Assembly: GCF_018448905.1 (NCBI RefSeq)
Contig: NZ_RCWA01000003.1
Span: forward strand, 154,708-218,707
Length of the DNA: 64,000 nt
Source: Photorhabdus heterorhabditis
GTDB taxonomy: Bacteria; Pseudomonadota; Gammaproteobacteria; Enterobacterales; Enterobacteriaceae
Direction of reading: 5' to 3'
Shown here: one piece after another, positions 30,797 through 46,409 of the stretch
Position numbering within the stretch: position 1 is the stretch's first letter
Layout of the letters: each line of letters begins with the position of its first letter
Program-made: the position numbers and the translations under genes
The notes under the pieces: generated by a model
What the model was told of the DNA's origin: nothing
Seen by the model: only the letters and a program-made list of their open reading frames with translations
The model's database searches: none

Positions 30797-31021
30797 CTGG
30801 TTTATGCCCTCTTATTTTTCAATGGGTCTTGGTTATAATGCTGTGTTATATGTTTACTGACAACAGGAAGTTAATTACGCCGCCCTTTATGGTAAAATTG
30901 TGCGAAACGGATCGATAAATTTCTTTTTTTATTGATAATTAAAGTCATACTGTTGCCGCTTGGTACACTTAATCACCAACATCAGGCACAGTCAGATATC
31001 GGAATTACGATAGGTTCAAAC

Positions 31022-31558
31022 ATGAAACAACTTTTAGACTTTTTACCTTTAGTCGTGTTTTTTGTTGTATACAAAATGTATGACATTTTCTACGCTTCCG
31101 GGGCCTTAATTGCAGCGACTGGTTTAGCTGTAGCCATTACTTATCTCATCTACCGAAAAGTAGAAAAATCCTCCCTGATTACTTTTGTTATGGTTGCGGT
31201 TTTCGGCACCTTAACTTTGGCTTTCCACAGTGATCTATTTATTAAATGGAAAGTCACAGCAATTTATGGTTTGTTCGCATTAGCTTTGCTAGGCAGCCAA
31301 TGGTTCATGAAAAAACCACTTATTCAGAAAATGCTAGGAAAGGAGTTGATTTTACCGGATTTTGTCTGGAATAAACTAAATATGGCGTGGGCGCTATTCT
31401 TCATTGCTTGTGCACTGGCTAATATTTATGTCGCATTCTGGTTACCACAAGATGTCTGGGTCAACTTTAAAGTATTTGGTCTAACTGCCCTGACTCTGGT
31501 TTTCACCGTGCTCAGTGTAGTATATATTTATCGCCATCTGCCACGCGAACAGAAGTAA
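31022..31558 (+). CDS. yciB: Inner-membrane septation/cell-envelope protein YciB
   Basis: A 178-aa multi-pass membrane protein (179 in E. coli). It is involved in cell-envelope integrity and interacts with elongation and division proteins. The start at 31022 ([21 protein letters not shown]) is fixed by family alignment. Conserved segments: [36 protein letters not shown] and [21 protein letters not shown]. yciA follows after 77 bp on the same strand, as in E. coli. Confidence 0.94.
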
Positions 31559-31635
31559 CCATATTCAAATGAATACCTGTCTTCTGTAATCTGTAGGCAG
31601 GTATTGTCTTTTCATCAAATAAAGTAAAGTTTTCA

Positions 31636-32067
31636 ATGACACAACAACAATTACCCAACGGAGAGTTAGTACTCCGCACACTGGCTATGCCTGCCGATAC
31701 CAACGCAAATGGAGACATTTTTGGCGGATGGTTAATGTCACAAATGGATATTGGGGGCGCAATTCTAGCAAAAGAAATTGCAGAAGGCCGCGTTGTCACT
31801 GTCAGAGTAAATGGTATTACTTTCCTAAAACCTGTCGCTGTTGGTGATGTAGTATGCTGTTATGCACATTGTCTCAAAACTGGTAACAGCTCGATTACCA
31901 TTAATATCGAAGTCTGGGTGAAGAAAGTAGCATCTGAGCCTGTAGGTCAACGCTATCGTGCAACCGAAGCTGTATTCACTTATGTTGCTGTTAATGAGGA
32001 TAATACTCCACGCCATTTACCAGAAGGTAAAACCCAATTCCAACTAGCCAGCAGCACTTGCGAATAA
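31636..32067 (+). CDS. yciA: Acyl-CoA thioesterase YciA
   Basis: A 143-aa hotdog-fold acyl-CoA thioester hydrolase. The motif TLAMPADTNANGDIFGGWLMSQMDIGGA (about residues 16-43) holds the catalytic Asn/Asp region; GRVVTVRVNGITFLKPVAVGDVV and GQRYRATEAVFTYVAV are also typical. It lies downstream of yciB and is convergent with tonB, as in E. coli. Confidence 0.95.
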   Translation: MTQQQLPNGELVLRTLAMPADTNANGDIFGGWLMSQMDIGGAILAKEIAEGRVVTVRVNGITFLKPVAVGDVVCCYAHCLKTGNSSITINIEVWVKKVASEPVGQRYRATEAVFTYVAVNEDNTPRHLPEGKTQFQLASSTCE

Positions 32068-32081
32068 ACCTGGTACGGATG

Positions 32082-32116
32082 AAAAAAGGAGCATCTTAAT
32101 AATGCTCCTTTTTCTT
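32082..32116. terminator. Bidirectional terminator between yciA and tonB
   Basis: The stem AAAAAAGGAGCAT / ATGCTCCTTTTT with a short loop has T runs on both strands. Confidence 0.85.
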
Positions 32117-32125
32117 TTCCAATAA

Positions 32126-32815
32126 TCAGGATTGAGTTATACCAGTAATTCTAAATTCTACTGTTGTAATATAGCCAACAGCGGGTATTTTTTCATAGCG
32201 CCATTTTCTCATCGCTTTTTTTACTTCCCTGTCAAAAACATTCGGTGGATTGGCACCAATCACTTCTATATTTTTTACCCTGCCGTCTTCATCAATATCA
32301 TATTTGACTTTAACATAACCTTCGGTCCCCAATGCTGAAGCTCTTGATGGGTAAATAGGCAAAGATTTACTTAATGCTTTTGGGCCTCTCTGCGGCTTAA
32401 TCACCGTATCATTCCAACTATTATCGACACGGTCAGCCTGTGTATTCTGGTTGAACAATGGTTTTTCCGATTGATCTGCTTTCTTCTCAACGGGTTCAGA
32501 TTGCTTTTTAACAACCTTTTTCTTCACTTCTGGCTTCGGTTTTTTCACCTCTGGTTTTAGGATCACCGGCTCTGGAACAGGTTCAGGTTCTGGTGGTTCC
32601 TCTGGTTCTGATACAGGTTCCGGTGCAGCAGGTTCTGATACAGAAACTTCTTCAGCAGCTAACTGAATCATAGCTACAGACATAGGTGCAACATCAGGCT
32701 GTCTTTCCGGTATCACAGTACCAAAAAGTGCGGCAGCAACAGAGATATGTAAACAAACTGATAAAAATACTGGCCAACGTATCCAGCGCATAAGAAAGTT
32801 CTTTATTAGCAGCAT
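32126..32815 (-). CDS. tonB: TonB energy-transducing protein
   Basis: TonB couples the proton motive force, through ExbB/ExbD, to outer-membrane receptors for iron chelates and B12. The start at 32815 (MLLIKNFLMRWIRWPVFLSVCLH) has a GAGG site upstream; the frame is open to 32860. The single N-terminal membrane helix contains the SxxxH motif (SVCLHISVAAALF). A Glu-Pro/Lys-Pro-rich spacer follows (about residues 65-125). The C-terminal domain includes YPSRASALGTEGYVKVKYDID and MRKWRYEKIP. Confidence 0.96.
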   Translation of the reverse strand: MLLIKNFLMRWIRWPVFLSVCLHISVAAALFGTVIPERQPDVAPMSVAMIQLAAEEVSVSEPAAPEPVSEPEEPPEPEPVPEPVILKPEVKKPKPEVKKKVVKKQSEPVEKKADQSEKPLFNQNTQADRVDNSWNDTVIKPQRGPKALSKSLPIYPSRASALGTEGYVKVKYDIDEDGRVKNIEVIGANPPNVFDREVKKAMRKWRYEKIPAVGYITTVEFRITGITQS

Positions 32816-32848
32816 AATAGTCAATCCTCGAATAACTGCTATTTTAAA

Positions 32849-32880
32849 TGCAAATAGCAATCATATTCAATAAAGATTGT
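32849..32880. promoter_or_regulatory. Candidate Fur box upstream of tonB
   Basis: GCAAATAGCAATCATATTC matches 12 of 19 positions of the Fur consensus GATAATGATAATCATTATC, about 35 bp upstream of the tonB start. tonB is Fur-regulated in E. coli. The match is only moderate. Confidence 0.4.
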
Positions 32881-32916
32881 AGATGAGCGTGAATATAAGG
32901 CCAAAAATACTATTTT

Positions 32917-33099
32917 TTAATGCATCCATTCACCATACTGAACGAATAATAAAGCACGACGTTGTTTATAACCATTTAATTTACGTAGTGAATAAATTCG
33001 CAAATTACGTCTTGATTGCCCCACCAGCCACCGGCGACGATGGTGGGAACTCTGGCGTAACATCCGCCACCTCCCTACTTCATTCCTGCTATGTCTCAT
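32917..33099 (-). CDS. yciY: Small basic protein YciY
   Basis: 60 aa, very rich in Arg. RHSRNEVGRWRMLRQSS, RRWLVGQSRRNLRIYSLRK and the tail KQRRALLFVQY align along the whole length with E. coli YciY (57 aa; KRSRTEVGRWRMQRQAS, LEGQSRRNMRIHSIRK). Function is unknown. An AGGGG site precedes the ATG. It lies between tonB and clsA, the E. coli neighbourhood, although yciI, which E. coli has there, is absent. Confidence 0.85.
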   Translation of the reverse strand: MRHSRNEVGRWRMLRQSSHHRRRWLVGQSRRNLRIYSLRKLNGYKQRRALLFVQYGEWMH

Positions 33100-33130
33100 A
33101 AAATACCCCTGTAAAAATAATCCCGCTCAT

Positions 33131-33240
33131 TATATACCCAATAGATTTCAAGATGCATCGCGACGGCAAAGGAGCAAATCCCCGGGAGCATAGCAAAGAG
33201 TTCAGCCAACAAAGAGGCAACTTGAAAGATAACAGGTATA
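33131..33240. repeat. ERIC repeat
   Basis: It runs from TATATACCCAATAGATTTC to CAACTTGAAAGATAACAGGTATA, with part of the central hairpin (CCCCGGGAGCATAG) but not its partner arm. About 110 bp. Confidence 0.88.
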
Positions 33241-33451
33241 AGCCTTTAAAAATGATATCCAAGACGTATCTGGATAGTACTTTTTATATCAATAATGCGA
33301 AATGACTAATATCAAGTATGATGCTTGCAGTATATTTGCGGATTTTTTGGTAAATTCATCAGATTAATAGATCGTTTATATCCCGTGCCTCTGGGAAAAC
33401 GAGTTAAACGCCACCAAAGATGTCTGAACAAAACAGGATTGATTGCCGAAC

Positions 33452-34912
33452 ATGACAACCTTTTATTCCGTCCTAAGTTGGCTTGCTATTTTCTTCTATT
33501 GGCTGATTATTGCCAGTATTACCTTACGCATTTTGATAAAGCGCCGACCTGTAACTTCCGCTATGACCTGGCTATTGATTATTTATATCCTACCTTTAGT
33601 TGGAATTATTGCTTACCTGTCATTTGGTGAGCTGCATTTGGGGAAACGTAGAGTTGAACAGGCAAAAGCCATGTGGCCATCAACAGTCACATGGCTTGAA
33701 GAATTGCGCAAATCTCGCCATATCTTTGCCACAGAAAACAGTGAAGTAGCAACACCTTTATTCCAGCTTTGCGAGCGGCGACAAGGGCTTGAAGGTGTTA
33801 AAGGTAACAAGATCCAACTGTTGACAACCTATGACACTTCATTAAAAACCATCATCAAAGATATTGATAACGCCAAACACAATATTGAGATGATGTTTTA
33901 TATCTGGCAATCCGGCGGCTTGGTCGAACAAGTCACTGATGCCCTCATGGCCGCGGCACGCCGAGGGGTCAGATGTCGCGTCATGGTAGATTCAGCGGGA
34001 AGTTGGTTATATTGTCGCAGTCAATACCCAGACATCATGCGCCAAGCAGGAATTGAATTTGTTGAAGCTTTGCAGGTTAATATCTTCCGTTTATTTTTAC
34101 GCCGGATGGATCTGCGCCAACACCGCAAAATCATCTTGATTGATGATTATATTTCTTACACTGGCAGCATGAATATGGTCGATCCACGTTTCTTTAAACA
34201 AAATGCCGGTGTTGGGCAGTGGATTGACATCATGGTAAGAATGGAAGGGCCTGTCACCACGACTATGGGGGTTATTTACGCCTGTGACTGGGAAATGGAA
34301 ACGGGTCAGCGTATCTTCCCGCCATCACCAGATAACAACATTATGCCATTTGAACAGGCCAGTGGGCACACGACTCAGATTATTGCATCCGGTCCAGGAT
34401 TCCCTGAAGAGTTGATTCAACAATCTTTAATGACCGCTATTTTCTCTGCCCGTAAGCAATTGATTCTGACTACCCCTTACTTTGTTCCCAGTGATGACCT
34501 CATGAATGCTATTTGTACCGCAGCCTTACGGGGTGTAGACGTCATTATCATCGTTCCCCGTAGAAATAATTTTTTCCTTGTCCGTTGGGCAAGTCGGGCA
34601 TTCTTCTCTGAACTATTAAACGCAGGGGTTAAGATTTACCAATTTGAAGATGGTTTATTACATACCAAAAGCGTTTTGGTTGATGGTCAGCTCAGCATGG
34701 TTGGTTCAGTTAATCTCGATATGCGTAGCCTGTGGCTAAATTTTGAAATTACCGTGGTTATCGATGATGAAAACTTTGGCCATGACCTAACTCTGGTGCA
34801 ATACGATTACATTTCCCGTTCTACATTGTTGGCAGCCAATGAGTGGGAGCAACGACCTCTGTGGCATCGAATTATTGAACGTATTTGTTACTTCTTTAGC
34901 CCGCTACTGTGA
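33452..34912 (+). CDS. clsA: Cardiolipin synthase A
   Basis: ClsA condenses two phosphatidylglycerols into cardiolipin at the inner membrane. The start at 33452 ([17 protein letters not shown]) follows E. coli ClsA and gives 486 aa, the same length. Two N-terminal membrane helices lie at residues 5-60. Two phospholipase-D motifs are present: [19 protein letters not shown] (about 220) and [20 protein letters not shown] (about 400). It ends in the conserved CYFFSPLL. Confidence 0.96.
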
Positions 34913-35024
34913 TCAATCCCCTCGTCTTGTAAAGACGGGGGTACCAATCAATGCGTCATCATGTTTTAATTCCTCCTTCATGACTCACGCATAAATCAAT
35001 ATGGACAACAGGCCCCCGCAAACT

Positions 35025-35354
35025 ATGAATTTAGATCTCAATAACCGAATGACAGAAGACGAAACTCTTGAAAAGGCGTATGACATCTTTCTTGAGCTGG
35101 CCCCATCCAATCTTGATCCTGCTGATATTCTGTTATTTAGCTTACAATTCGAAGTACGTGGCGGTGCCGAACTATTAAATCCTTCTGATGAATGGCTTGA
35201 ACATGTAGATTTCGATCTGAACCCTGACTTCTTTGCCGAAGTCATTATCGGGCTAGCAGAATCTGAAGATACAGAGATTAATGATATTTTTGCCCGTATT
35301 CTTATTTGCCGGGAAAAATCTCACCAAATTTGCCATATTTTGTGGAAAGAATAG
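35025..35354 (+). CDS. yciU: UPF0263 acidic protein YciU
   Basis: A small acidic protein of the YciU/HI1450 family, which has a DNA-mimic-like fold and no firm function. Starting at 35025 ([20 protein letters not shown]) it is 109 aa, the E. coli YciU length; an upstream ATG at 35001 is possible. Neither start has a clear ribosome-binding site. [19 protein letters not shown] and [21 protein letters not shown] are strongly conserved. It lies downstream of clsA on the same strand, as in E. coli. Confidence 0.92.
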
Positions 35355-35486
35355 AAAAACAAAGTTAGTCATCTCTATCACGTTGCCCCACCTGCTCCCA
35401 ATACAAAATACCGTTACAGCACAAATTTTACCGGCGAAAAACTTTCTGTATTATGTTTCAAAATAATAAACATTACTCAACAACCA

Positions 35487-35550
35487 CCGACTAAAGTCGG
35501 CTGTCTTTTATACAGAAGTCCTTCACATGATGTGAAGGACTTTTTTTTAA
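35487..35550 (+). terminator. Two hairpins after yciU, the second a strong terminator
   Basis: CCGACT / AGTCGG (35487-35500) followed by TTTT, then GTCCTTCAC / GTGAAGGAC (35518-35540) followed by eight T. The second is a clear intrinsic terminator. It marks the left edge of the accessory segment. Confidence 0.8.
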
Positions 35551-35606
35551 ACTAAATGCTTAGCTCACGATCAGATCCTTAACGGATTTAATTGAGGGTT
35601 TCTGAG

Positions 35607-35768
35607 ATGATAAAAAGTAATAATGAATGGGCTAAAGAACAATTTGGGCACGCTAAACTTGGTGATCCAAGAAGAACGGCTAGGCTCGTTAAAATGGCGT
35701 CAGACTTAGCTCAGCATCCCGGTAAATCGGTAGTAAAATCATCTCCTTCACCAGCCAACAACGGATGA
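35607..35768 (+). pseudogene. N-terminal fragment of a Tn5/IS4-type transposase
   Basis: 53 codons starting NNEWAKEQFGHAKLGDPRRTA and continuing RLVKMASDLAQHPGKSVV. This is the N-terminal DNA-binding segment of Tn5-like transposases (WAxxxFGxAxLGDxRRTxRLV). At about 35745 it runs directly into an unrelated IS110 fragment. The DDE catalytic domain is gone. Confidence 0.75.
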
Positions 35769-36153
35769 CACCGCCCAGCGTCTTATGACCATCCCGGGTG
35801 TTGGTCCAATCACAACTAGCTTACTTTCTTCACAGTTGGGAGATGGCCGACAATATGCCAAAAGTCGTGATTTTGCCGCCTCAACGGGATTAGTCCCCAG
35901 GCAATACAGCACGGGAGGAAAAAATACCCTGCTGGATATCAGCAAACGAGGCAATAAGAACTTGCGCAGATTACTGGTGCAATGTGCATGAGTATTTATA
36001 CAGCGATTGGATCATTATTCAGGAAAACTGGCTGACTGGGTCAGGCAGCAGTTTGAACGAAAACATTCCAATGTAGTGACCTGTGCACTGGCGAATAAAT
36101 TTGCCCGGATAGCTTGGGCAATCACGACACAGCACACGATATTTGACGCCTGA
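35752..36153 (+). pseudogene. C-terminal fragment of an IS110-family transposase with a nonsense codon
   Basis: DDTAQRLMTIPGVGPITTSLL, FAASTGLVPRQYSTGGKNTLL and SKRGNKNLRRLLVQCA form the Transposase_20 domain of IS110 elements. A TGA at 35989-35991 replaces the Arg expected after QCA. The frame then continues FIQRLDHYSGKLADWV and HSNVVTCALANKFARIAWAI to the natural end. The N-terminal DEDD catalytic half is absent. Confidence 0.82.
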
Positions 36154-36234
36154 TTCTGCGTCATTATGAATAAATTTAAACGTTACCCCACTGGTTTTGC
36201 GAAGACTGATAATTGATGACATAAACGGCCTATC

Positions 36235-36655
36235 GGCCTGATGAGAAACCTTCTCAAGCAAAGTGGCAAGGTTTATACCCGGCTAATACCTAACGCGAAG
36301 TCCGATACGTTAATGCCGATAATCACGGCGAAAATCAAGCCTAACAGGCTGATCTACATAGACAATTTTGCCAACTATGATGTGTTAGATGTATCCGATT
36401 TTAAACACTATCGTATCAACCATAGTACAGAGTTTGTAGACGCTAAAAATAATCAAAATCATATCAATGGAATAGAGAATTTTGGAACCAGGCCAAACGT
36501 CATCTGCACAGATTTAATGGCATCCCAAAGGAGCATTTTGAGCTCTTTCTCAAGGAATGTGAATAAAGGTTTAATACACCGGGTGTAAAATACCAATTAC
36601 ATATTCTAAAACAAATAGTTAAAGGAAAAATATAATCGTTATCTAGGACAGCCCC
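36235..36655 (+). pseudogene. IS1595-family transposase remnant with frameshift, nonsense codon and right end
   Basis: GKVYTRLIPNAKSDTLMPII, YDVLDVSDFKHYRINHSTEF and NHINGIENF match the ISXO2/IS1595 DDE domain. A missing T near 36480 shifts the frame; the next frame reads FWNQAKRHLHRFNGIPKEHF and FLKECE, then TAA where Trp is expected. CTAGGACAGCCCC at 36643-36655 looks like the terminal inverted repeat and marks the right end. The N-terminal part is missing. Confidence 0.78.
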
Positions 36656-36865
36656 AAAAACATTATTCACAACTTATATTCTGTAGTGACAAATTGATTC
36701 AAGAAAAGATATTTTCTTTGATTGATCTACATCTAAGACAGCAATGCGCATATATTCCTCCTTTTATTTTTCCAACAGGATATTTCTGCAAAAAAGACAT
36801 ATCCGAAGAAACTCTCATGACTATAGGTGAATATATAACACGGAAGGAAAATTTAAATGATATAT
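36656..36865 (+). pseudogene. C-terminal remnant of an unidentified gene, cut by the IS1595 element
   Basis: One frame stays open from the IS end to a TAA at 36863-36865. It includes KHYSQLIFCSDKLIQEKIFS, CAYIPPFIFPTGYF and EETLMTIGEYITRKENLND. It overlaps the start of the next gene by 9 bp, the overlap typical of coupled operon genes. It is therefore probably the last ~68 residues of the first surviving gene of the cluster. I do not recognise the family. Confidence 0.55.
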
Positions 36866-37831
36866 AAACTTAACGCATCTGTAATAATGAAAAATAATTC
36901 ATTGCTTCTTCATGGCAAGAATTCTTATGAATTAAAAATCCAATAGAAATCAGAGAAAATAATTTCTTTTATAGAGTTTTTAAGCAAAGGAATAGATGAA
37001 GAACATATAAAAAAACTTGTCAGCAAAGATAATTTAATCAAAAAAATTTATAATAAACTAAAAGATACAAAATTGATTATTTCATATTTGGATGATTATA
37101 AAGAAACATCAATGGAAAAAAGCCATGAATTTTTAAATTATCATTTATCCACTGTCGAAGCTCCCTTTAAATTTAAAAAAGACTTACACGCTCTTATTAT
37201 TGGTTGTGGTGGAATTGGATCTCATATTGCTATCTGTCTTGCCACATCAGGTTTTAGTGAAATAACGCTGATAGATTATGACAAAGTTGATATAACTAAT
37301 TTAAACAGACAATTCGCATTTGATAAATACGACATTGGTGAATTCAAGGTAACAGCACTTAAAAACAAACTGAAGAAAATAAATTCAGAATTAAAAACAA
37401 ATATCCATATCAAAAAATTAGACTCAGAAGAATCCCTTGATTTTTTCTCAAAAAAGGTAGATATAATAATTTCAGCCATAGACACCCCTGTTATCATGTC
37501 TTCTATATATACAGCCGAATATGCATTAAAGCACAACATTCCAATTATCTATGGAGCAGTTGGTTATGATATCGTTAGTGCAGGGCCCTTGCTAGACAAC
37601 ACATCATCTATAGAAAATTAGATATCATCAATATCAGAATACAAAAAAATAAAAGCCACTACAATTAAAGGCTCTATCGCTTCAACTAATTCTTTACTTG
37701 CATCAATATTAGCGAATAGCATCATTAGCTATTTCTACCCTTTTGCTCCTGTAGAATTACTCAACAAAAGAAAAGTATTAAATCCTACGAGTTTAGAACT
37801 AATTGGAGAGCAATATTATGACTGTCACTAA
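36857..37831 (+). pseudogene. MccB-like ThiF/E1 adenylating enzyme with two in-frame TAG stops
   Basis: 325 codons in one continuous frame from ATG 36857, interrupted by TAG at 36944 (codon 30) and 37619 (codon 255). The N-terminal 95 codons are small and Lys/Asn-rich, in the position of the peptide-clamp domain of MccB. The adenylation core follows: HALIIGCGGIGSHIAICLAT, ITLIDYDKVDITNLNRQFAF and IIISAIDTPVIM. Compared with MccB of microcin C7 (350 aa; VILGCGGIGNH, LIDNDQIENTNLTRQ), order and spacing agree, but the CxxC zinc cysteines of MccB are missing. MccB attaches AMP to the C-terminus of a heptapeptide; the target here is unknown. Very AT-rich. Its end overlaps the next gene by 14 bp. 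Confidence 0.75.
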
Positions 37832-38927
37832 ACGCGAACTTTTTTCTATCATAATTAATAAATATGTGATAGATTTTCAGGTTGATCTCTGGAACAAATA
37901 TCAGCAATCTAGCTTAAATTCAATTAATTGTGATACTGCTTTGCTAGATAATAAAGGAAAATAATGGAAAGAAAAAGTAAAATTATACTCATTAAAAAAT
38001 AAGAGTAAATATGACCATATCATAAAATTAATCAGCAGTAATATGGTTGAACAAAATGATAGCTTATCACAATTCGAATATTGTGATAACGAATGGACAT
38101 ATAAAAAGACTCTAGTGGCAATAAATAACATTTGTATGAGTAATGAAAATTTATCTTATGCAATGAATTTGTATATTAATGATATTTTGATTGTGAAATG
38201 TGATAATTTTATCGCATCCTCTTCAATTAAATTTCTCGGAACCATTATTATAGCACCCAAGAAACACTGGAAAATAATTGATTATATGGAAAATTTAATT
38301 CATGAAATGTCTCATATTGATCTGTATATCAAACAATTAGTAGATCCATTAGTAATATCAAAAAATTTAATAAAAAGTCCATTTAGGAACTATAATAGGC
38401 CAGTAATAGGTGTATTAATTTTAATGACTGTTCCAATTTTGTTGGTTCCTTATACCAATGAAGTATTACATGCTGGTACAGATACGTTTGCCGCTCTCGA
38501 AGCACTGTATTCAGCTGGCGTTCTGCTTGGTGGCTTCTTCTCGCCTATTTTATGCCGCATAATATCCATGAAGAACACCATTTTTTGCCTGTTGGTAATA
38601 ATGGCATTTTCATTATTTTTCTTATCAAAAAACTCAAACACCTTTTTGGCATATCCTATTTATTTCCTGGTTGGGTTTGGTTTATCCAGCTGGGCGCTAT
38701 CAATTACCCTGGCTCAAATAATGAGTGATCCAGCCTATCAAGGGAGACTACAATCAACGTTCAATGGTCTATCCGGCATAGGCATATTAACCATATACTT
38801 ATTAATGAATTACCAGGGTAAAAATATTGATGTCCAAAACATCTATTTTTGGGAATTCTTACTGGCTATTTTTGCTGCAATATTTGTGATTTTTTTCAGG
38901 AATAAAGAGGCTGTTCATGAAAAATAA
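37818..38927 (+). pseudogene. HExxH peptide-hydroxylase-like domain fused to the C-terminal half of an MFS exporter; one in-frame TAA
   Basis: 370 codons from ATG 37818, with TAA at 37962-37964 (codon 49). Codons 1-190 end with IIIAPKKHWKIIDYMENLIHEMSHIDLYI and LVDPLV. An HExxH motif (HEMSH) followed by a DPL segment is the pattern of the alpha-ketoglutarate HExxH peptide beta-hydroxylase family found in RiPP clusters. From about codon 195 the protein becomes six hydrophobic helices, e.g. VIGVLILMTVPILLVPYTNEV, AGVLLGGFFSPIL and YFLVGFGLSSWALSITLAQI, like the second half of an MFS exporter. An in-frame deletion probably joined two genes. The family call for the HExxH part rests on the motif. 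Confidence 0.68.
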
Positions 38928-40680
38928 GAATCAAACATTCATTACTGCTGAAAATATACATTACCACAGCTCAAAAAACGATCTGTTTAAGGGGTTGTCT
39001 GTATCGTTAAACCAGAATGATAAAGTAGGTCTGATCGGGTTTAATGGCTCTGGCAAATCTACTTTGCTAAAAATTATTTCTAAAAACCTTTCGCCTAATA
39101 GCGGTACAGTAACACATGCCAATAACCTGAAATTCTATATGATTGAGCAACATTTTCCCGATTCTTTATTGGATTTCAGTCTACTAGACGCTACATTATC
39201 CGTGTTGCCTTGTGATGAACGTTATTCCAGTGGCTGGAAAGCTGAAACTGTACTTACTGACATTGGTTTCAGAAGTGAGCATTTTCATATAAAATGTTCA
39301 AACTTGAGTGGTGGACAAAAAACGAAAATTTTGATTGCACGGGCTTTGCTTCTGGAACCAAATACTCTTTTACTAGATGAACCATCCAACCATCTTGATT
39401 TACCCACTATGCTTTGGCTTGAACAATTTTTATCAACCTGGAAAGGGTGCTTAATCACCGTGTCACATGACCGTAGATTGCTAGACAACGTAACAAATTG
39501 CAGCTGGATTATTTCCAATAATACCCTTTATAAATACGGCTATCCATGTAGCAATGCACTAATCGAACACCAAAAACTTGAAGACACCTTACAATTACAA
39601 CATGCCGCTGAAGAGCAAGAGATACGCCGACTTGAATCAAGCGCAAAACAGTTGGCTATATGGGGTAAAAACTATGACAGTAACAGCCTTTCCAGAAAGG
39701 CTCAATCTATGTTTAAAAGAATTGATAAATTAAAAGAGCAACAATGCGAAACGATAGATGACTATCCTTGGTATTTAACATTCCTAGGGAGATCTCTCCC
39801 CGCCAACAAGATTATTGATATAAATAATTTTAATGTCCAACTTAAAAACAGCACATTAAAATTATTCAATATTACTGACTTTACCGCAGCATCAGGTGAT
39901 CGTATTGCCATTCTTGGTGAGAATGGATGTGGGAAATCTACCTTTTTAGAATATGTTTGGCATAATTATGTTACTCTTGCTGATAATACTTCAGAAATCC
40001 AGATCCATCCTAAAGCAATAATGGCCTATTACGATCAGGCGTTAAACAGACTCGATGATAAATATTCATTAATTGATGCTTTAATAATGTACTGTGATTT
40101 TGCTGGCGTATCAGTTGATAATGAAACCTGCAAGAAAGCGTTAATAAAAGCCGGATTCACCTATAACCGTTTATTTTCCAAGATTGAAACATTAAGTGGT
40201 GGCGAAAGAGCTCGTGTCCTATTATTGGGAATATCTCTAATTGATAGTCATATCATTATGCTGGACGAACCAACTAATCATCTCGATTTTATTGGCAAAA
40301 CTGAGCTGGCAGAACAACTTCGAGCATATCGAGGAACTCTCATTTTGGTTTCCCATGATCGTGAGTTTCTGGAAAAAGTGTGTAACCGTTTTTTTGTCAT
40401 CAATAACGGTAAACTTATCGAGTACAACGATTCAAATTCAGCTTACAAAAGTATGTACTCAGACTCGTCTATCAATAATCACTACGAACCCCAAAATTCA
40501 TCAGTTCAGTCTGTGCCAGTTAATGACAAGAACGACGATGAGTTATTAAAACGCCTTTTTGTGCTTGAAGAATTATTGCAAGAAGATAAAAGACGAAAGA
40601 ATAAGCATCAAAAACCGGCTCTTCAAGCTATTTGGCATAAGGAAATCAATGAAATCAATAAATTACTGAATTTGAATTGA
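38917..40680 (+). CDS. ABC-F family ATPase
   Basis: 587 aa with two ABC ATPase domains and no membrane segment, the ABC-F architecture. Domain 1: GFNGSGKS (about 41-48), LSGGQKTKILIARALLLEP, LLLDEPSNHLD. Domain 2: GENGCGKS (about 337), LSGGERARVLLLG, IMLDEPTNHLD. A charged linker lies near 215-270, and a coiled-coil-like Lys/Glu-rich tail at 535-587. ABC-F proteins act on the ribosome, and some give antibiotic resistance by target protection. It is intact, overlaps the preceding broken gene by 11 bp, and is the last gene of the cluster, so self-immunity is a reasonable inference. Confidence 0.88.
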   Translation: MKNKNQTFITAENIHYHSSKNDLFKGLSVSLNQNDKVGLIGFNGSGKSTLLKIISKNLSPNSGTVTHANNLKFYMIEQHFPDSLLDFSLLDATLSVLPCDERYSSGWKAETVLTDIGFRSEHFHIKCSNLSGGQKTKILIARALLLEPNTLLLDEPSNHLDLPTMLWLEQFLSTWKGCLITVSHDRRLLDNVTNCSWIISNNTLYKYGYPCSNALIEHQKLEDTLQLQHAAEEQEIRRLESSAKQLAIWGKNYDSNSLSRKAQSMFKRIDKLKEQQCETIDDYPWYLTFLGRSLPANKIIDINNFNVQLKNSTLKLFNITDFTAASGDRIAILGENGCGKSTFLEYVWHNYVTLADNTSEIQIHPKAIMAYYDQALNRLDDKYSLIDALIMYCDFAGVSVDNETCKKALIKAGFTYNRLFSKIETLSGGERARVLLLGISLIDSHIIMLDEPTNHLDFIGKTELAEQLRAYRGTLILVSHDREFLEKVCNRFFVINNGKLIEYNDSNSAYKSMYSDSSINNHYEPQNSSVQSVPVNDKNDDELLKRLFVLEELLQEDKRRKNKHQKPALQAIWHKEINEINKLLNLN

Positions 40681-40775
40681 TTACGGCTAAACCAGCGAGA
40701 GTTGCTAATCTAGATGTATGCCTGAATCCCAAGCAGAACCAAAAAAACAACTCTCATATTTATGGTTTATAGAGA

Positions 40776-40802
40776 TGCCTCAATGTAAAACCCAGTGAGG
40801 CA
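40776..40802 (-). terminator. Terminator of the opp operon
   Basis: TGCCTCA / TGAGGCA stem just beyond oppF on the minus strand. Confidence 0.55.
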
Positions 40803-40832
40803 CACCATCTAATATGACAACGTCACCAACCA

Positions 40833-41834
40833 TCACAATGGATCAACTTTCAAACAAGACACCGCATGGCGGAAACTTCCCTCCATCAATGGTCGGGTTT
40901 TAGCGCATTCAGGATCTGCCATCGGGCAACGTGTACGAAAAACGCATCCTGACGGCGGATTAATGGGTGATGGTAATTCTCCTTCCAACAGCTCAATGTG
41001 TTTATTTCGCTCTTTATCTGGATCAGGCACGGGTACCGCCGACATCAACGCTTTGGTATAAGGGTGCTGTGGATTATGATAAACCTCATCATAAGTTCCC
41101 AGTTCCACCGCATGCCCAAGGTACATTACCAATACACGGTCAGATATGTGTTTAACCACAGCAAGATCATGAGCAATAAAAATCAGCGACAATCCCATTT
41201 CACGCTGTAATTCCTGTAACAGGTTAACTACCTGAGCTTGAATGGATACATCAAGTGCGGATACCGGCTCATCACAAATCACTAGTTTAGGTTCAAGGAT
41301 AAGCGCCCGTGCAATCCCGATACGCTGACACTGACCACCAGAAAATTCATGAGGGTAACGGTTAATCAGGTTAGGCAATAATCCAACCTTCATCATCATT
41401 GCGCTTACCCGGTCTTTGATTTCCAGCCTTTTCATCTTGGGATGATAAGTACGCAATGGCTCAGCGATAATATCGCCTATCGTCATTCTCGGATTCAACG
41501 ATGCTAATGGGTCCTGAAATATCATCTGGATATCACTGCGAATATCTCGCCACTGCTTATCATTCATATCCAGCAGATTTTGCCCCAACCAAGTTACTGA
41601 ACCACCAGAAGATTTAACCAATCCGATAATTGCACGAGCAAAAGTCGATTTTCCACAACCGGATTCACCAACCACACCAAGGGTTTCGCCTTCATACAGC
41701 CTCAATGTGACACCATCGACCGCTTTCAGCGTTTTTGCTGGTTGCCAGAACCATTGTTTACCATCTTTAATATCAAAGTGAACTTTCAGATCTGCTACTT
41801 CCAGCAGCACGCGTCTTTCTTCAATCGGATTCAT
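40833..41834 (-). CDS. oppF: Oligopeptide ABC transporter ATPase OppF
   Basis: Second ATPase of the oligopeptide permease, 333 aa. Walker A GVVGESGCGKSTFARAIIGL (about residues 54-73), signature FSGGQCQRIGIARALILEP, Walker B LVICDEPVSALDVS, and the C-terminal oligopeptide-transporter segment with four Cys near GCVFRTRCPMADPECAKTRP, which in related proteins binds Fe-S or metal. The start overlaps the oppD stop by 4 bp (ATGA). Confidence 0.97.
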   Translation of the reverse strand: MNPIEERRVLLEVADLKVHFDIKDGKQWFWQPAKTLKAVDGVTLRLYEGETLGVVGESGCGKSTFARAIIGLVKSSGGSVTWLGQNLLDMNDKQWRDIRSDIQMIFQDPLASLNPRMTIGDIIAEPLRTYHPKMKRLEIKDRVSAMMMKVGLLPNLINRYPHEFSGGQCQRIGIARALILEPKLVICDEPVSALDVSIQAQVVNLLQELQREMGLSLIFIAHDLAVVKHISDRVLVMYLGHAVELGTYDEVYHNPQHPYTKALMSAVPVPDPDKERNKHIELLEGELPSPINPPSGCVFRTRCPMADPECAKTRPLMEGSFRHAVSCLKVDPL

Positions 41835-42829
41835 ACCAATTCTCCCGGTGCTTTAAAACAAGCTCGCAAGCGCCCGTTGCCAAAGGTTTCTAATTTTGGT
41901 TCACAATCCACGCAATGACTTACTGAAAACTGGCAGCGTGGCTGGAACGGACACCCTTTCGGCAACCGCAATAAGTTGGGCGGATTCCCCGGGATCGTTA
42001 TCAATGATTCTTCATGACCATCAAGACGGGGAACAGCACCAAGAAGACCAATAGAATAAGGATGAGTTGGTTGATAAAACACGTCACGGGCTGAACCATA
42101 TTCCATCGTTCTCCCTGCATACATTACGAGCACTTTGTCACAAATACCTGCCACGACACCCAAATCATGGGTAATCATAATAATCGCGGTATTAAATTCC
42201 CGTTTCAACTCATTCAAGAGGGTCATAATCTGAGCCTGAACCGTTACATCAAGTGCGGTTGTCGGTTCGTCAGCAATAAGTAATTTTGGTCGGCATAACA
42301 ATGCCATTGCGATCATTACACGTTGACGCATACCACCAGAAAATTCATGAGGATACATGCTCATACGCTTACGCGCTTCCGGCATTTTAACCGCATCCAA
42401 CATCCGAATTGACTCAAGATACGCTTCACTTTTACTCATATGTTTATGCAACATCAATACTTCTGTCAGCTGATCACTGACGCGCATATAGGGATTGAGA
42501 GAAGTCATTGGGTCCTGAAATATCATCGATATTTCTTCCGCTCTCATACGGTTTAGTTCTTTTTCTTGCAGATTAAGAATTTCCCTGCCATTAAAAATAG
42601 CAGAGCCGCCAGTTTTCCCGTTTCTGGCAAGCAATCCCATCAGAGCAAAAGCTGTTTGTGATTTCCCAGAACCAGATTCCCCTACGATCCCCAATGTTTC
42701 CCCGGCCCGTAAATCAAAATTTAACTTATTCACTGCGGTAACATCCCCTTCCGGGGTGCTAAAAGTCACGTTCAAATCTTTAACAACCAACAACGGCTCA
42801 GAGCTATTCTGGTTTTTAACGCTGTTCAT
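41831..42829 (-). CDS. oppD: Oligopeptide ABC transporter ATPase OppD
   Basis: 332 aa. Walker A GIVGESGSGKSQTAFALMGLL, the Q-loop region MIFQDPMTSLNPYM, signature FSGGMRQRVMIAMALLCRP, Walker B LLIADEPTTALDVTVQAQ, and the C-terminal cysteine cluster GCPFQPRCQFSVSHCVDCEP. It pairs with OppF to power the OppBC channel. Confidence 0.97.
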   Translation of the reverse strand: MNSVKNQNSSEPLLVVKDLNVTFSTPEGDVTAVNKLNFDLRAGETLGIVGESGSGKSQTAFALMGLLARNGKTGGSAIFNGREILNLQEKELNRMRAEEISMIFQDPMTSLNPYMRVSDQLTEVLMLHKHMSKSEAYLESIRMLDAVKMPEARKRMSMYPHEFSGGMRQRVMIAMALLCRPKLLIADEPTTALDVTVQAQIMTLLNELKREFNTAIIMITHDLGVVAGICDKVLVMYAGRTMEYGSARDVFYQPTHPYSIGLLGAVPRLDGHEESLITIPGNPPNLLRLPKGCPFQPRCQFSVSHCVDCEPKLETFGNGRLRACFKAPGELV

Positions 42830-42838
42830 GTTACCTCC

Positions 42839-43747
42839 TTAACGATCTTTCGGATCGAGGGCATCACGCAAGCCATCGCCGATAAAGTTAAAACAAAACA
42901 GTGTCACCACCAGAAAACCGGCTGGAAACAACAGCAACCACGGGGAAACTTCCATCGAATTCGCACCATCACTTAACAATGCTCCCCAACTGCTTAACGG
43001 TTCTTGAGTTCCCAATCCCAGAAAACTAAGAAACGACTCAAACAGGATCATGCTTGGTACTAACAAAGATGCATAAACCACCACCACCCCCAATACATTA
43101 GGGACGATATGGCGCAACACAATGTGACGGGTTGATACACCACACACCAGCGCTGCTTCAATAAACTCCTTACGTTTCAAGCTCAGCGTCTGACCGCGGA
43201 CAATACGTGCCATATCCAGCCATGACACCATACCGATAGCGACAAATATCAGTAAAATATTCTGCCCAAAGAAAGTCACCAATAGGATCACAAAAAACAT
43301 GAATGGAAATGAATTAAGAATTTCCAACATACGCATCATAACTGAATCGGTTTTTCCACCCAGATAACCGGATAATGATCCATATAAGGTTCCGACGACT
43401 ACCGCAACCAAAGCGGCTGCCACCCCAACCATCAATGAAATGCGCCCCCCAATGGCAACACGCACCAGCAAATCACGACCGGAAGAATCTGTACCAAAAT
43501 AGTGACCTGATTCAAAATCAGGTGGCATCGACATCATAGCCCAGTCAGTATCATCATAAGTAAATTGCGCTAACATCGGTGCCAGGATCACAAACAAGGT
43601 AATCAAAGATAACAAACACAAGCTGGCAATCGCCGCCCGGTTGTGAATAAAACGACGTCGTGCATCCTGCCATAAACTACGACCTTCAACTTCCAGTTGC
43701 TCAGAGAAATTTTCCAGAGCTTCGCTGTTTTGTTTATTTACTATCAT
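42839..43747 (-). CDS. oppC: Oligopeptide permease OppC
   Basis: 302-aa inner-membrane permease subunit. The N-terminal hydrophilic segment (1-40) is followed by six helices. FGTDSSGRDLLVRVAIGGRIS and the EAA loop EAALVCGVSTRHIVLRHIVPN are characteristic. It lies 9 bp upstream of oppD. Confidence 0.97.
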   Translation of the reverse strand: MIVNKQNSEALENFSEQLEVEGRSLWQDARRRFIHNRAAIASLCLLSLITLFVILAPMLAQFTYDDTDWAMMSMPPDFESGHYFGTDSSGRDLLVRVAIGGRISLMVGVAAALVAVVVGTLYGSLSGYLGGKTDSVMMRMLEILNSFPFMFFVILLVTFFGQNILLIFVAIGMVSWLDMARIVRGQTLSLKRKEFIEAALVCGVSTRHIVLRHIVPNVLGVVVVYASLLVPSMILFESFLSFLGLGTQEPLSSWGALLSDGANSMEVSPWLLLFPAGFLVVTLFCFNFIGDGLRDALDPKDR

Positions 43748-43761
43748 TGCGCGCTCCAGTT

Positions 43762-44682
43762 TTAATAACGGATCTTCGGATCGATAACGGCATACAGCAC
43801 ATCAACAATCGCATTGAACAGAATAGTCAGGCCACCAACCAAAATAGTTAGGCTTAATACCAATGAATAGTCACGGTTCAATGCTCCATTAACAAACAAC
43901 TGCCCTATTCCCGGCAAACCGAAGATCGTTTCAATGACCATCGAGCCAGTGATAATGCCGACAAAAGCAGGTCCCATATAAGAAATAACCGGTAACAATG
44001 CGGGCTTCAAAGCATGGCGGAAAATAATGATGCGCAATGGCAACCCTTTGGCTCGCGCAGTACGAATAAAGTTAGAGTGCAGCACTTCTATCATTGAACT
44101 ACGGGTAATACGGGAGATACTGGCAATATAAGCCAAAGACAATGCCACCATTGGCAATATCATGTACTTCGGTGCTCCGCCATTCCAGCCTCCTCCCGGT
44201 AGCCATTTAAGGTGAATAGCAAATACCAGCACCAGTAACGGTGCCACAACAAAGCTTGGGATAACAACCCCCGTCATGGCGAAACCCATCACTGTATAAT
44301 CCCACTTTGTATTCTGATTAAGTGCAGCAATCACCCCAGCACTGACTCCCAACACAACCGCCATAATAAATGCCGCAGCACCTAACCTGGCAGATACCGG
44401 AAATGCCACGGCGACCAGATCGTTAACGGTATAATCCTTATATTTAAAAGAAGGCCCAAAATCCCCCTTAGTAAGCTGGATTAAGTAATCAAAATATTGT
44501 TTATAAATTGGATCATTTAGATGATATTTCGCTTCAATGTTTGCCAGTACTTCTGGTGGCAACTTCCGTTCACCGGTAAATGGACTGCCTGGCGCCAACC
44601 GCATCATGAAAAACGAAATAGTAATGAGAATCAAAAGTGTCGGGATCGCCTCTAAACAACGACGTAAAATAAATTTAAGCAT
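43762..44682 (-). CDS. oppB: Oligopeptide permease OppB
   Basis: 306-aa permease, E. coli length. N-terminal LKFILRRCLEAIPTLLILI, then MMRLAPGSPF; the EAA loop is TARAKGLPLRIIIFRHALKPA. It ends in YAVIDPKIRY, as in the family. It partners OppC as the transmembrane pore. Confidence 0.97.
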   Translation of the reverse strand: MLKFILRRCLEAIPTLLILITISFFMMRLAPGSPFTGERKLPPEVLANIEAKYHLNDPIYKQYFDYLIQLTKGDFGPSFKYKDYTVNDLVAVAFPVSARLGAAAFIMAVVLGVSAGVIAALNQNTKWDYTVMGFAMTGVVIPSFVVAPLLVLVFAIHLKWLPGGGWNGGAPKYMILPMVALSLAYIASISRITRSSMIEVLHSNFIRTARAKGLPLRIIIFRHALKPALLPVISYMGPAFVGIITGSMVIETIFGLPGIGQLFVNGALNRDYSLVLSLTILVGGLTILFNAIVDVLYAVIDPKIRY

Positions 44683-44768
44683 TGTCCGTTCCTATGTGTT
44701 GGCCCTTAACCCTGGCCTTAAAATAATCTGCCACTAAAAGCAGCCATTTCCAGGCTGCCCTACAACCA

Positions 44769-46409
44769 TTAGTGTTTGATAATATAAAGCTCTTTGGTGC
44801 GTAAATTACCCAAAGGATCTTTCCCTGTATAGCCGCCAACATAGGGCTTCACTAACCGGGTATTCACATAGTAGTAAAGGGGAACAATAGCCGAATCTTT
44901 ATCTAGTTGCTCTTCTGCTTTTTGGTAAACGGCGGTACGCTCATCATCAGTTTTTACTTGCAGGGATTCTTTCATCAGTTTATCAAATTCACTGCTCTTA
45001 TAATGAGCCGTGTTATTACTACTATAAGAAATCATTGAATTTAAGAATGAAGAAGGTTCGTTATAATCAGCGCACCAGCCCGCACGAGCTACGTCATAAT
45101 TGCCCTGATGTCGGGTATCAAGAAACGTTTTCCACTCTTGGTTTTCTAAACGAACATCAGCTCCTAAATTCTTCTTCCAAATAGAAGCTACCGCAATGGC
45201 GATTTTTTTATGTAGATCAGAGGTGTTGTAAAGCAAGTTAAACTTCAATGGATTATCTTTAGTATAGCCAGCTTCAGCCAGTAATTTTTTGGCTTCCTGG
45301 TTGCGCTGTTCCTGACTCCAACCAGTAAACCACACTGGCTTTATTTCTTTCATACCATCAGTAAACGGCGGTGTATAACCTGAAGCCGGGATATCACCCT
45401 GTGCTTTAACTTTATTGGTCACAATGTCTCGATCCATAGCCAATTTCAGTGCAGTACGGACGCGGAGATCATTAAATGGGGGTTTTTCGTTATTAATTTC
45501 GTAGTAATAAGTACATAAAAGTGGGCTAATGCGTAATTCGTCCGGGATCTCTTTCTTCAGCTTCTGGAATAGCTCAATCGGCAAGTTGGTATAAGTCATA
45601 TCAATTTCACCACTGCGATAACGGTTTACATCCGTTACTTCTGAGGAAATTGGCAGGAAAGTGACCTGATCAATAATCGTATTTTTGTTATCCCAATATG
45701 TCGGGCTACGCTCCATCACAATACGCTCATTGACTATCCAGTTTTTCGGTTTGTAAGCTCCATTGCCGACAAAATTCTGTGGCTGAGTCCATTTCTCACC
45801 ATACTTTTCCACTGTAGCTTTATGCACCGGCGACATGGGTGAATGAGCCAAAAGTTTTACCAAATAGGGAACCGCTTCGCTCAATGTTAGCTGTAATGTA
45901 TAGTCATCTAGCGCCTTTACACCCAGAGTGTCCGGTTTCTTTTTACCACTGATAATGTCATCAATATTCATGATATGAGCATACTGGAGAAAACTTGTAT
46001 AGGGAGAAGCCGTATTGGGATCAGCCAGACGTTGCCAACTGTAAACAAAATCCTGAGCAGTGACAGGGTCACCATTAGACCACTTAGCATCTTTGCGCAT
46101 ATGGAATGTCCAGACGGTGAAATCTTTATTTTCCCAACTGATTGCAGAACCCGGCAAAATTTCACCATTTGGTCCAACAACAGTAATGCCTTCGAACAGA
46201 TCGCGAGACAAATGTGACTCTGGCACCCCTTCAATCTTATGCGGGTCCAGCGATTGCGGTTCAGAACCGTTATTACGAACTAAAACCTGTTTATCCGCTA
46301 ATTGAACACCATCAGGCACTTGTGCAGCAAAGACCTGACTTGCCATTACCATACTCAGTGCAGCGCTAATGCTGGCAGTAAGTAATTTCTTTTTAGTTGT
46401 GTTTATCAT
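44769..46409 (-). CDS. oppA: Periplasmic oligopeptide-binding protein OppA, copy 1
   Basis: 546-aa SBP family 5 lipid-free binding protein. The signal peptide spans about residues 1-28 (...ALSMVMASQVFAA), followed by AQVPDGVQLADKQVLVRNNG. The family signature YSWQRLADPNTASPYTSFLQY and WCADYNEPSSFLNSM are present. It lies directly upstream of oppB, the normal oppA place, and 135 bp downstream of a second oppA-like gene. Both copies look intact. Confidence 0.95.
   Translation of the reverse strand: MINTTKKKLLTASISAALSMVMASQVFAAQVPDGVQLADKQVLVRNNGSEPQSLDPHKIEGVPESHLSRDLFEGITVVGPNGEILPGSAISWENKDFTVWTFHMRKDAKWSNGDPVTAQDFVYSWQRLADPNTASPYTSFLQYAHIMNIDDIISGKKKPDTLGVKALDDYTLQLTLSEAVPYLVKLLAHSPMSPVHKATVEKYGEKWTQPQNFVGNGAYKPKNWIVNERIVMERSPTYWDNKNTIIDQVTFLPISSEVTDVNRYRSGEIDMTYTNLPIELFQKLKKEIPDELRISPLLCTYYYEINNEKPPFNDLRVRTALKLAMDRDIVTNKVKAQGDIPASGYTPPFTDGMKEIKPVWFTGWSQEQRNQEAKKLLAEAGYTKDNPLKFNLLYNTSDLHKKIAIAVASIWKKNLGADVRLENQEWKTFLDTRHQGNYDVARAGWCADYNEPSSFLNSMISYSSNNTAHYKSSEFDKLMKESLQVKTDDERTAVYQKAEEQLDKDSAIVPLYYYVNTRLVKPYVGGYTGKDPLGNLRTKELYIIKH

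Follow-up and report, generated by a model that had tools for sequence, protein, structure and literature searches.

Positions 36656–40680 of a 64,000-nucleotide stretch of the Photorhabdus heterorhabditis genome (assembly GCF_018448905.1, contig NZ_RCWA01000003.1; the whole stretch is referred to here as the window) form the AT-rich right part of the interval between yciU and the opp genes and hold pieces of five genes. They are probably, at roughly 60%, the decayed copy of a horizontally acquired gene cluster for a ribosomally synthesised and post-translationally modified peptide (RiPP), in which deletions and nonsense changes ended production and a single gene, encoding an ABC-F ATPase, remained whole. 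The pathway would oxidise and activate the C-terminal His-Arg-Cys of a small precursor peptide, yielding an inhibitor of translation. A preliminary description of the interval had proposed a peptide-modifying cluster that was lost here and left an immunity-type gene behind, and the pieces do match intact clusters in other genomes, with only ABC-F whole.

Whole eight-gene clusters were found in Photorhabdus caribbeanensis HG29 (G004), Salmonella enterica subsp. arizonae CCUG 6322T (G057) and Pantoea sp. Mb-10. These are the three loci returned with the first JmjC protein of the cluster (JmjC-A) in a scan of one genome per species over 84,980 species, which used this query and two short peptide patterns and reaches close relatives only; more distant versions may lie beyond it. 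In all three loci the order is precursor, JmjC-A, a protein of the solute-binding protein (SBP) type, ThiF, HExxH, a second JmjC protein (JmjC-B), a major facilitator superfamily (MFS) exporter and ABC-F, and several of the genes overlap. Protein lengths are 311–312 aa (JmjC-A), 446–458 aa (SBP-type), 322–324 aa (ThiF), 274–278 aa (HExxH), 268–278 aa (JmjC-B), 406–415 aa (MFS) and 533–587 aa (ABC-F), with pairwise identities from 36% (HExxH, Photorhabdus and Salmonella) to 76% (MFS, Salmonella and Pantoea). By eye, the Photorhabdus cluster is flanked by cls/yciU and opp, that of Salmonella by a glycosidase/sugar-symporter pair and a fumarase-like gene, and that of Pantoea by arabinose genes and a two-component system. 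The GC content of the cluster against that of the rest of the locus is 31.4 against 41.4% in Photorhabdus, 39.5 against 51.5% in Salmonella and 42.0 against 54.3% in Pantoea, and so low a GC content relative to the surroundings fits horizontal transfer.

At the sequence level, gene content and order are common to three genera, and the window pieces, whose order and register equal those of the intact clusters, are more than a chance collection. An assembly of unrelated genes by chance, at an insertion hot spot beside insertion sequence (IS) debris, would suit the IS remnants just upstream in the window and the IS1595-like open reading frame (ORF) beside the P. caribbeanensis cluster, but it is refuted by the 84,980-species scan, since the identical eight genes, several of them overlapping, recur in a single order in three genera whose flanks differ; its likelihood is negligible. 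A functional tie to the adjoining opp operon was also set aside, because in Salmonella and in Pantoea the cluster adjoins different genes. The genes thus stay together in related genomes as the preliminary description supposed, though the cluster is rare. A small ORF leads each of the three clusters, as had been anticipated, but it precedes JmjC-A and not the E1 (ThiF) gene, and the gene content first listed has to be extended by two JmjC/Cupin_8 oxygenases and the SBP-type protein, which were invisible from the letters of the window.

The state of the window copy follows from its alignment (blastn) to the P. caribbeanensis cluster. Positions 36656–38415 match as a single ungapped block of 1,760 bp at 93.8% identity, and the match resumes over 38416–41200 at 94.4%, past 1,757 bp that are missing from the window. 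This deletion took the 3' end of the HExxH gene with its GV[YF]HxAFV motif, the whole of JmjC-B and the beginning of the MFS gene, and it fuses the HExxH and MFS remnants in frame. Upstream of 36656 the window has lost the precursor gene, JmjC-A and the greater part of the SBP-type gene; the three precursors gave no match to the whole window by tblastn at E<=1, which agrees with the earlier suggestion that the precursor was removed together with the 5' part. ABC-F is the sole whole cluster gene left.

In each intact locus the first gene is a precursor ORF of 48–49 aa, preceded by a Shine-Dalgarno-like AGGAG and ending in LLLA[V/T]HRC (MQDFESKEFRSY...LLLAVHRC in Photorhabdus, MNDFESKEFRSY...LLLATHRC in Salmonella and Pantoea). 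The N-terminal residues D-F-E-S-K-E-F-R-S-Y are conserved, and 29 of the 50 alignment columns are invariant in all three. The Salmonella and Pantoea genes are separated by 17 silent and four non-silent codon differences (5, 1 and 16 base differences at the first, second and third codon positions), and in the final His, Arg and Cys codons the variation between species is silent only. Because the Photorhabdus precursor differs from the other two by 11–12 silent and 15–17 non-silent codon changes, selection on the precursor is plain only in the Salmonella–Pantoea pair. In all three loci, then, a precursor conserved at the protein level lies beside modifying enzymes, which is the mark of a RiPP cluster, and we infer that the cluster is one. 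Conservation of the precursor can be read directly from the sequences, as can the metal-ligand motifs of the enzymes and the breakage of the window copy.

Three predicted oxygenases accompany the precursor. The HxD...H iron ligands are present in JmjC-A and JmjC-B of all three loci, and the four JmjC proteins scanned match Cupin_8 at E=2.6e-10 to 9.7e-14. Among solved structures the best relative of JmjC-A is JMJD6, followed by JMJD5 (named as an arginyl-hydroxylase) and several lysine demethylases, while the relatives of JmjC-B, all weak, are JMJD5 and the histidyl-hydroxylases MINA and NO66. The arginyl-, lysyl- and histidyl-hydroxylases leading these lists fit a His-Arg end, a fit that at such low scores and within so broad a fold cannot amount to proof. 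MINA and NO66 hydroxylate ribosomal proteins, and these relatives, together with the resemblance of the ABC-F protein to housekeeping translation factors, would suit a ribosome-modifying or regulatory system in which the oxygenases and ThiF modify a small protein, the precursor being its final form, that acts on the cell's own ribosome via ABC-F. Against such a system, which we consider improbable, stand the MFS efflux-type transporter in the operon, the loss of all or most of the cluster from two further Photorhabdus genomes, and the sporadic occurrence (three loci), AT-richness and different placement of the cluster in three genera, which are like those of dispensable secondary metabolism.

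The third candidate oxygenase belongs to the alpha-ketoglutarate (aKG)-HExxH type. HEMSH and GV[YF]HxAFV are present in all three intact proteins, the two that were scanned, from the loci other than that of Pantoea, score 45.8 and 56.9 bits against TIGR04267 (cut-off 40), and among solved structures ChlH (8s5f, 2.2e-7) is the one relative with an E-value no higher than 1. The HEMSH segment had been assigned to the peptide hydroxylases from the window letters, and the two scores above the cut-off uphold this. Hydroxylation of Asp, His or Gln is published for enzymes of this type, which are also able to cut the peptide backbone (PMC12636437, in part). The same features liken the cluster enzyme to the hydroxylases ChlH, BipH and PflC/PosC, but the partners described for those, in the portions of the literature available, are radical SAM, MNIO or TldD-type enzymes and not ThiF. 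A parallel for the pairing of oxygenases is biphenomycin (bip), in which BipG (JmjC) hydroxylates ornithine and BipH (HExxH) works on the same precursor in a pathway that also has an MFS transporter (PMC12707348, in part). The bip cluster differs in having a B12-radical-SAM enzyme, an MNIO and a TldD-type peptidase and no ThiF, and ABC-F goes unmentioned in the available part of that text (PMC12707348).

HExxH genes occur at seven places in six of 394 genomes of the order. Around three of these places (L043, L044 and L045) the ORF lists show no such cluster. One of them is a second aKG-HExxH gene of P. heterorhabditis, on contig C56 (L045 543–4735, minus strand; TIGR04267 74 bits, cut-off 40), which lies beside thiC and precedes an MFS-type gene and two others that are unnamed; it is perhaps part of another peptide pathway, with no obvious precursor among ORFs of at least 30 codons just upstream. 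In G316 (L044 641–8346) an HExxH-type gene adjoins, by eye, genes for a YcaO-like protein, an acetyltransferase and a flavin reductase, with a peptidase-type ABC exporter and its partner in the same locus, which looks like another RiPP-like cluster.

The nearest solved structure to the cluster ThiF is MccB (7.5e-26), followed more weakly by a TcdA-type dehydratase (9.1e-21), MoeB (4.6e-18), PaaA (6.7e-16) and ThiF (2.6e-14). A profile comparison with two MccB proteins aligned 239 columns at a probability of 99.2%, with the N-terminal domain outside the alignment. In a tree of 24 chosen rows the three cluster enzymes form a clade of their own (99/99), separate both from a clade of the thi-operon ThiF and seven others (100/100) and from one of E. 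coli MccB and two Photorhabdus rows (100/100); the deep branching order is weakly supported (69/64). CxxC pairs, of which E. coli MccB has two, are lacking in all three cluster enzymes, an absence that is not specific to their clade since six other rows of the 24 also lack them. A plain ThiF/MoeB identity is ruled out by MccB as best solved relative and by the position outside the thi-operon clade, as the preliminary description had held; its label of MccB-like is right for the nearest solved structure and too narrow for an enzyme with a clade of its own and no CxxC pairs.

ThiF enzymes of RiPP pathways adenylate C-terminal carboxylates, giving nucleotide conjugates, thiolactones, imides or amides (PMC12250964, in part), and three described systems invite comparison. 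The first is microcin C (MccA/MccB/MccC). The cluster could encode a microcin-C-like Trojan horse, a peptide with a nucleotide on its C-terminus that peptide transporters import and whose target is an aminoacyl-tRNA synthetase, with ABC-F as a bystander or helper. MccB is the best solved relative of ThiF and an MFS exporter follows, like in the E. coli MccC7 plasmid record, but the precursors are 48–49 aa long and end in Cys where that of microcin C has seven residues and ends in Asn (PMC12250964, in part), both CxxC pairs are lacking, ThiF lies outside the MccB clade, no MccE- or MccF-like gene was seen in the cluster, and ABC-F is part of it in all three intact loci. Three oxygenases and the SBP-type protein come in addition. 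Standard membership of microcin C is ruled out by the precursor, the missing CxxC pairs and the tree, and we regard the Trojan-horse reading as a whole as unlikely. Of the earlier proposal of a lost RiPP or peptide-nucleotide system, the loss of a peptide-modifying cluster is supported, and a peptide-nucleotide product is possible only, the precursor ending in Cys instead of Asn.

Pantocin A (PaaP/PaaA/PaaB/PaaC) likewise unites a precursor, a ThiF enzyme, an iron/2-oxoglutarate (Fe/2OG) oxygenase and an exporter in one cluster, but its core is two Glu inside the precursor (residues E16, E17 and N18 are named) and its exporter is of the EamA type (PMC12250964, in part); the present cluster has the C-terminal HRC, an MFS exporter and three oxygenases of the JmjC and HExxH types, and PaaA is a weaker match to its ThiF than MccB. 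None of the three precursors holds a Glu-Glu-Asn, which we take to be the pantocin A core, and the exporter in each cluster is MFS and not EamA. In GRC-type RiPPs (GrcA/GrcB) a ThiF enzyme again meets a Cys-ending precursor, GrcB linking Glu35 to the C-terminal Cys39 (PMC12250964, in part). The GRC clusters described there encode a stand-alone recognition element beside a pair of radical SAM enzymes; radical SAM enzymes are absent from the genes of all three clusters, which have three Fe-type oxygenases instead.

A microcin-C-like cluster lies elsewhere in the same P. heterorhabditis genome, apart from the window (L032 8200–10521; G000:C4:43199-45520). It has a 7-codon ORF, MISIASN, Asn-ending and behind the ribosome site GGGAGGGG, an MccB-like ThiF with CxxC pairs that groups with E. 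coli MccB (100/100), and an overlapping MFS gene; a close relative of this ThiF is present in Photorhabdus genome G006 (L009). Plasmids yielded 383 records related to the cluster ThiF, all less than 60% identical to it, and the five contexts examined are other systems. The best E-value among the 30 plasmid matches listed (1e-25, 33.7% identity) belongs to the Pantoea ananatis plasmid pOC5aB (L072 5746–8651), where genes for an MFS transporter, an AAA ATPase and a ThiF family adenylyltransferase stand consecutively.

The SBP-type protein matches PF00496 (4.7e-23 and 4.6e-11) and, among solved structures, oligopeptide-binding proteins (6npo, 3.3e-12). An exported oligopeptide-binding SBP with its permease was rejected, since by eye the N-terminus lacks a signal-like stretch in all three loci and none of the three intact clusters holds a permease gene. 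These features bear on a further alternative, that the oxidised HRC end binds a metal or serves as a signal and that ABC-F has nothing to do with ribosomes. In its favour, both His and Cys can ligate metals and the SBP_bac_5 family includes peptide- and nickel-binding proteins. Against it, the three intact clusters lack genes for a receptor, permease or regulator, an export signal is not evident in the binding protein and the ABC-F is without a membrane part, so that a metallophore or signal peptide appears a poor candidate. The MFS protein matches PF07690 at 2.9e-31 in P. caribbeanensis, and the Salmonella and Pantoea copies are MFS by alignment. The ABC-F proteins of the window and P. caribbeanensis score 420 and 421 bits against NF000355 (cut-off 380) and in this resemble resistance ABC-F proteins, but that of the window is far below the cut-offs of the Msr, Vga, Lsa, Sal, OptrA and CplR groups. 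In genome G007 an ABC-F protein with 45% identity is encoded on its own, outside any such cluster.

Taken together, these genes suggest the following pathway. The pathway proteins would bind the 48–49 aa precursor by leader recognition, and its C-terminal His-Arg-Cys would be the site of modification. Hydroxylation of these residues, or oxidative cleavage beside them, would fall to the aKG-HExxH enzyme and both JmjC/Cupin_8 oxygenases, and the MccB-like ThiF would use ATP to activate the C-terminal carboxylate, leading to a nucleotide conjugate, a thioester or thiolactone, or an amide. Since it shows no evident export signal, the SBP_bac_5-type protein may remain in the cytosol and hold the precursor or product. 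A short modified peptide would be released by HExxH cleavage or by host peptidases and exported by the MFS pump to act on the ribosome, while ABC-F would shield the ribosomes of the producer; that self-protection would come from an ABC-F is the reason for presuming the ribosome to be the target. A bolder version, which we hold only tentatively and judge doubtful, is that the HRC peptide, tiny, heavily oxidised and activated or capped by ThiF, binds the catalytic centre or the exit tunnel of the ribosome, is countered by a dedicated ABC-F and represents a new RiPP class in which a cytosolic SBP-type protein is chaperone to the precursor or the product; capping would then perhaps yield an aminoacyl-nucleotide mimic of the tRNA end.

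Several observations weigh against the pathway as outlined. The N-terminal 100 or so residues of ThiF, which have a winged-helix look by eye, gave no profile match to the MccB recognition domain (probability 0.2%). No RiPP role for an SBP_bac_5-type protein was found in the literature searched, and the intact clusters contain no peptidase gene. The Salmonella and Pantoea ABC-F proteins fall below the NF000355 cut-off (341 and 340 bits), and that of the window also resembles the housekeeping proteins YheS, YbiT and Uup, which are near in score. Promoter-like sites showed no excess over chance (21 found, 22.5 expected). Selective retention of ABC-F alone did not emerge from the ratio of non-synonymous to synonymous substitution rates (dN/dS): three pairs of ABC-F genes give 0.11, 0.20 and 0.12, a range that overlaps that of the remnants against G004 (ThiF 0.18, HExxH 0.29, SBP-type end 0.27, MFS half 0.09). 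Because dN/dS does not set ABC-F apart, decay of the remnants may simply be recent, and the support for retention of ABC-F, presumably for immunity, therefore comes solely from its survival in three genomes.

Those three are Photorhabdus genomes, two of which have lost all or most of the remaining cluster. Of 12 other genomes of the genus searched, two have ABC-F orthologues, 96 and 94% identical (G004 and G012), and in G012 a whole ABC-F gene stands beside yciU together with nothing more of the cluster than the MFS 3' end (from the equivalent of window position 38834). In eight of the ten genomes with no orthologue yciU directly adjoins opp, giving an empty site, and in the other two (G006 and G011) there is no yciU within the stretch examined. 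The window would represent a producer that lost synthesis and kept its probable self-protection gene. Such loss offers one route by which ABC-F genes of the resistance type could become solitary, as the ABC-F gene and MFS end of G012 illustrate.

Searches of other samples gave few matches or none. Among 295 genomes of the family ThiF had one strong match, in G057 (6.2e-60; the best of the next genome was 2.7e-20), and the precursor matched in G057 only; of five genomes of the genus Salmonella, G057 alone has JmjC-A. There were no matches to the SBP-type protein in 274 genomes of the class or to JmjC-A in 394 genomes of the order, samples that held no genome known to match. The Salmonella cluster DNA had no match in 20,395 E. 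coli records, JmjC-A had none in viral contigs and a single one in plasmids (28%, Nostoc), and the precursor had none in plasmid records. In the literature searched, nothing was found that joins ThiF with HExxH, or a RiPP with ABC-F and ThiF, and a description in subscription journals is possible for both. A search for ThiF, JmjC and a precursor peptide gave only PMC12710340, which in the part available describes other things; one for SBP_bac_5 in RiPP biosynthetic gene clusters gave a single paper, unrelated as listed, and the ABC-F in the accessible part of PMC12724294 is an ordinary resistance gene. As far as searched, this is a rare RiPP-type cluster with clear intact relatives, previously undescribed, and new in combination and not in kind. 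If the reading is right, it adds a ThiF-type RiPP family in which three oxygenases converge on a three-residue end, gives a solute-binding-type protein a role in peptide maturation, and provides a RiPP protected by ABC-F, which would point to the ribosome before the product is known. The whole clusters in three named strains make the pathway directly testable.

The remnants in the window and their surroundings are listed in Table 1. GC content is 27–38% over 36500–40499 against 38–47% in the other 500-bp steps of 30000–46000. Family matches were obtained by searching separate pieces of the window individually against Pfam and NCBIfam. The ThiF piece (37073–37618) matches PF00899 at E=5.7e-36, the MFS piece (38373–38924) matches MFS_1 at E=3.8e-9 and ABC-F matches ABC_tran at E=9.5e-42 (all Pfam); the HExxH piece (37965–38372) reaches mod_HExxH TIGR04267 (NCBIfam) at E=0.0011 and 19 bits, below the cut-off of 40. 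The first piece, 36658–36867, alone gave no family match in either collection and was assigned to the SBP_bac_5 type through its intact relatives. The preliminary description is accurate as to the consecutive frames, the AT-richness, the HEMSH motif, the MFS half, the whole ABC-F and the position between yciU and opp. It was mistaken in starting the interval with the MccB-like gene, since alignment to the intact relatives makes 36658–36867 the end of an SBP_bac_5-type gene, and of the overlaps it gave (9, 14 and 11 bp) the last two hold and the first is 11 on recounting.

Table 1. Cluster remnants and neighbouring features in the window
Feature	Coordinates	Strand	Basis or remarks
yciU	35001–35354		Left border of AT-rich stretch
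Tnp_DNA_bind piece	35592–35765	+	Pfam match
IS116/IS110/IS902 transposase piece	35785–35988	+	Pfam match
115-codon ORF resembling IS1595-type transposase end	36241–36588	+	Judged by eye
SBP_bac_5-type C-terminal remnant, 69 codons + stop	36658–36867	+	Alignment to P. caribbeanensis 458-codon gene
MccB-like ThiF/E1 pseudogene	36857–37831	+	TAG in frame at 36944 and 37619; PF00899
Putative aKG-HExxH hydroxylase pseudogene	37818–38415	+	TAA at 37962; HEMSH retained; 3' part deleted; TIGR04267
Deletion junction, 1,757 bp relative to P. caribbeanensis (G004)	38415–38416	no strand	blastn
MFS exporter C-terminal part, ~169 of 409 codons	38416–38927	+	MFS_1; alignment to intact 409-aa gene
Intact ABC-F ATPase, 587 aa, ribosomal-protection type	38917–40680	+	NF000355
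opp genes	from 40833 on	minus	Right border

The transposase debris at 35592–36588 occupies the site where the 5' part of the cluster is expected and is missing there in P. caribbeanensis. Three different transposase remnants are thus packed between yciU and the cluster remnant, marking an insertion-prone spot, and the P. caribbeanensis cluster has an IS1595-like transposase ORF at the corresponding border (L026 11145–12095).

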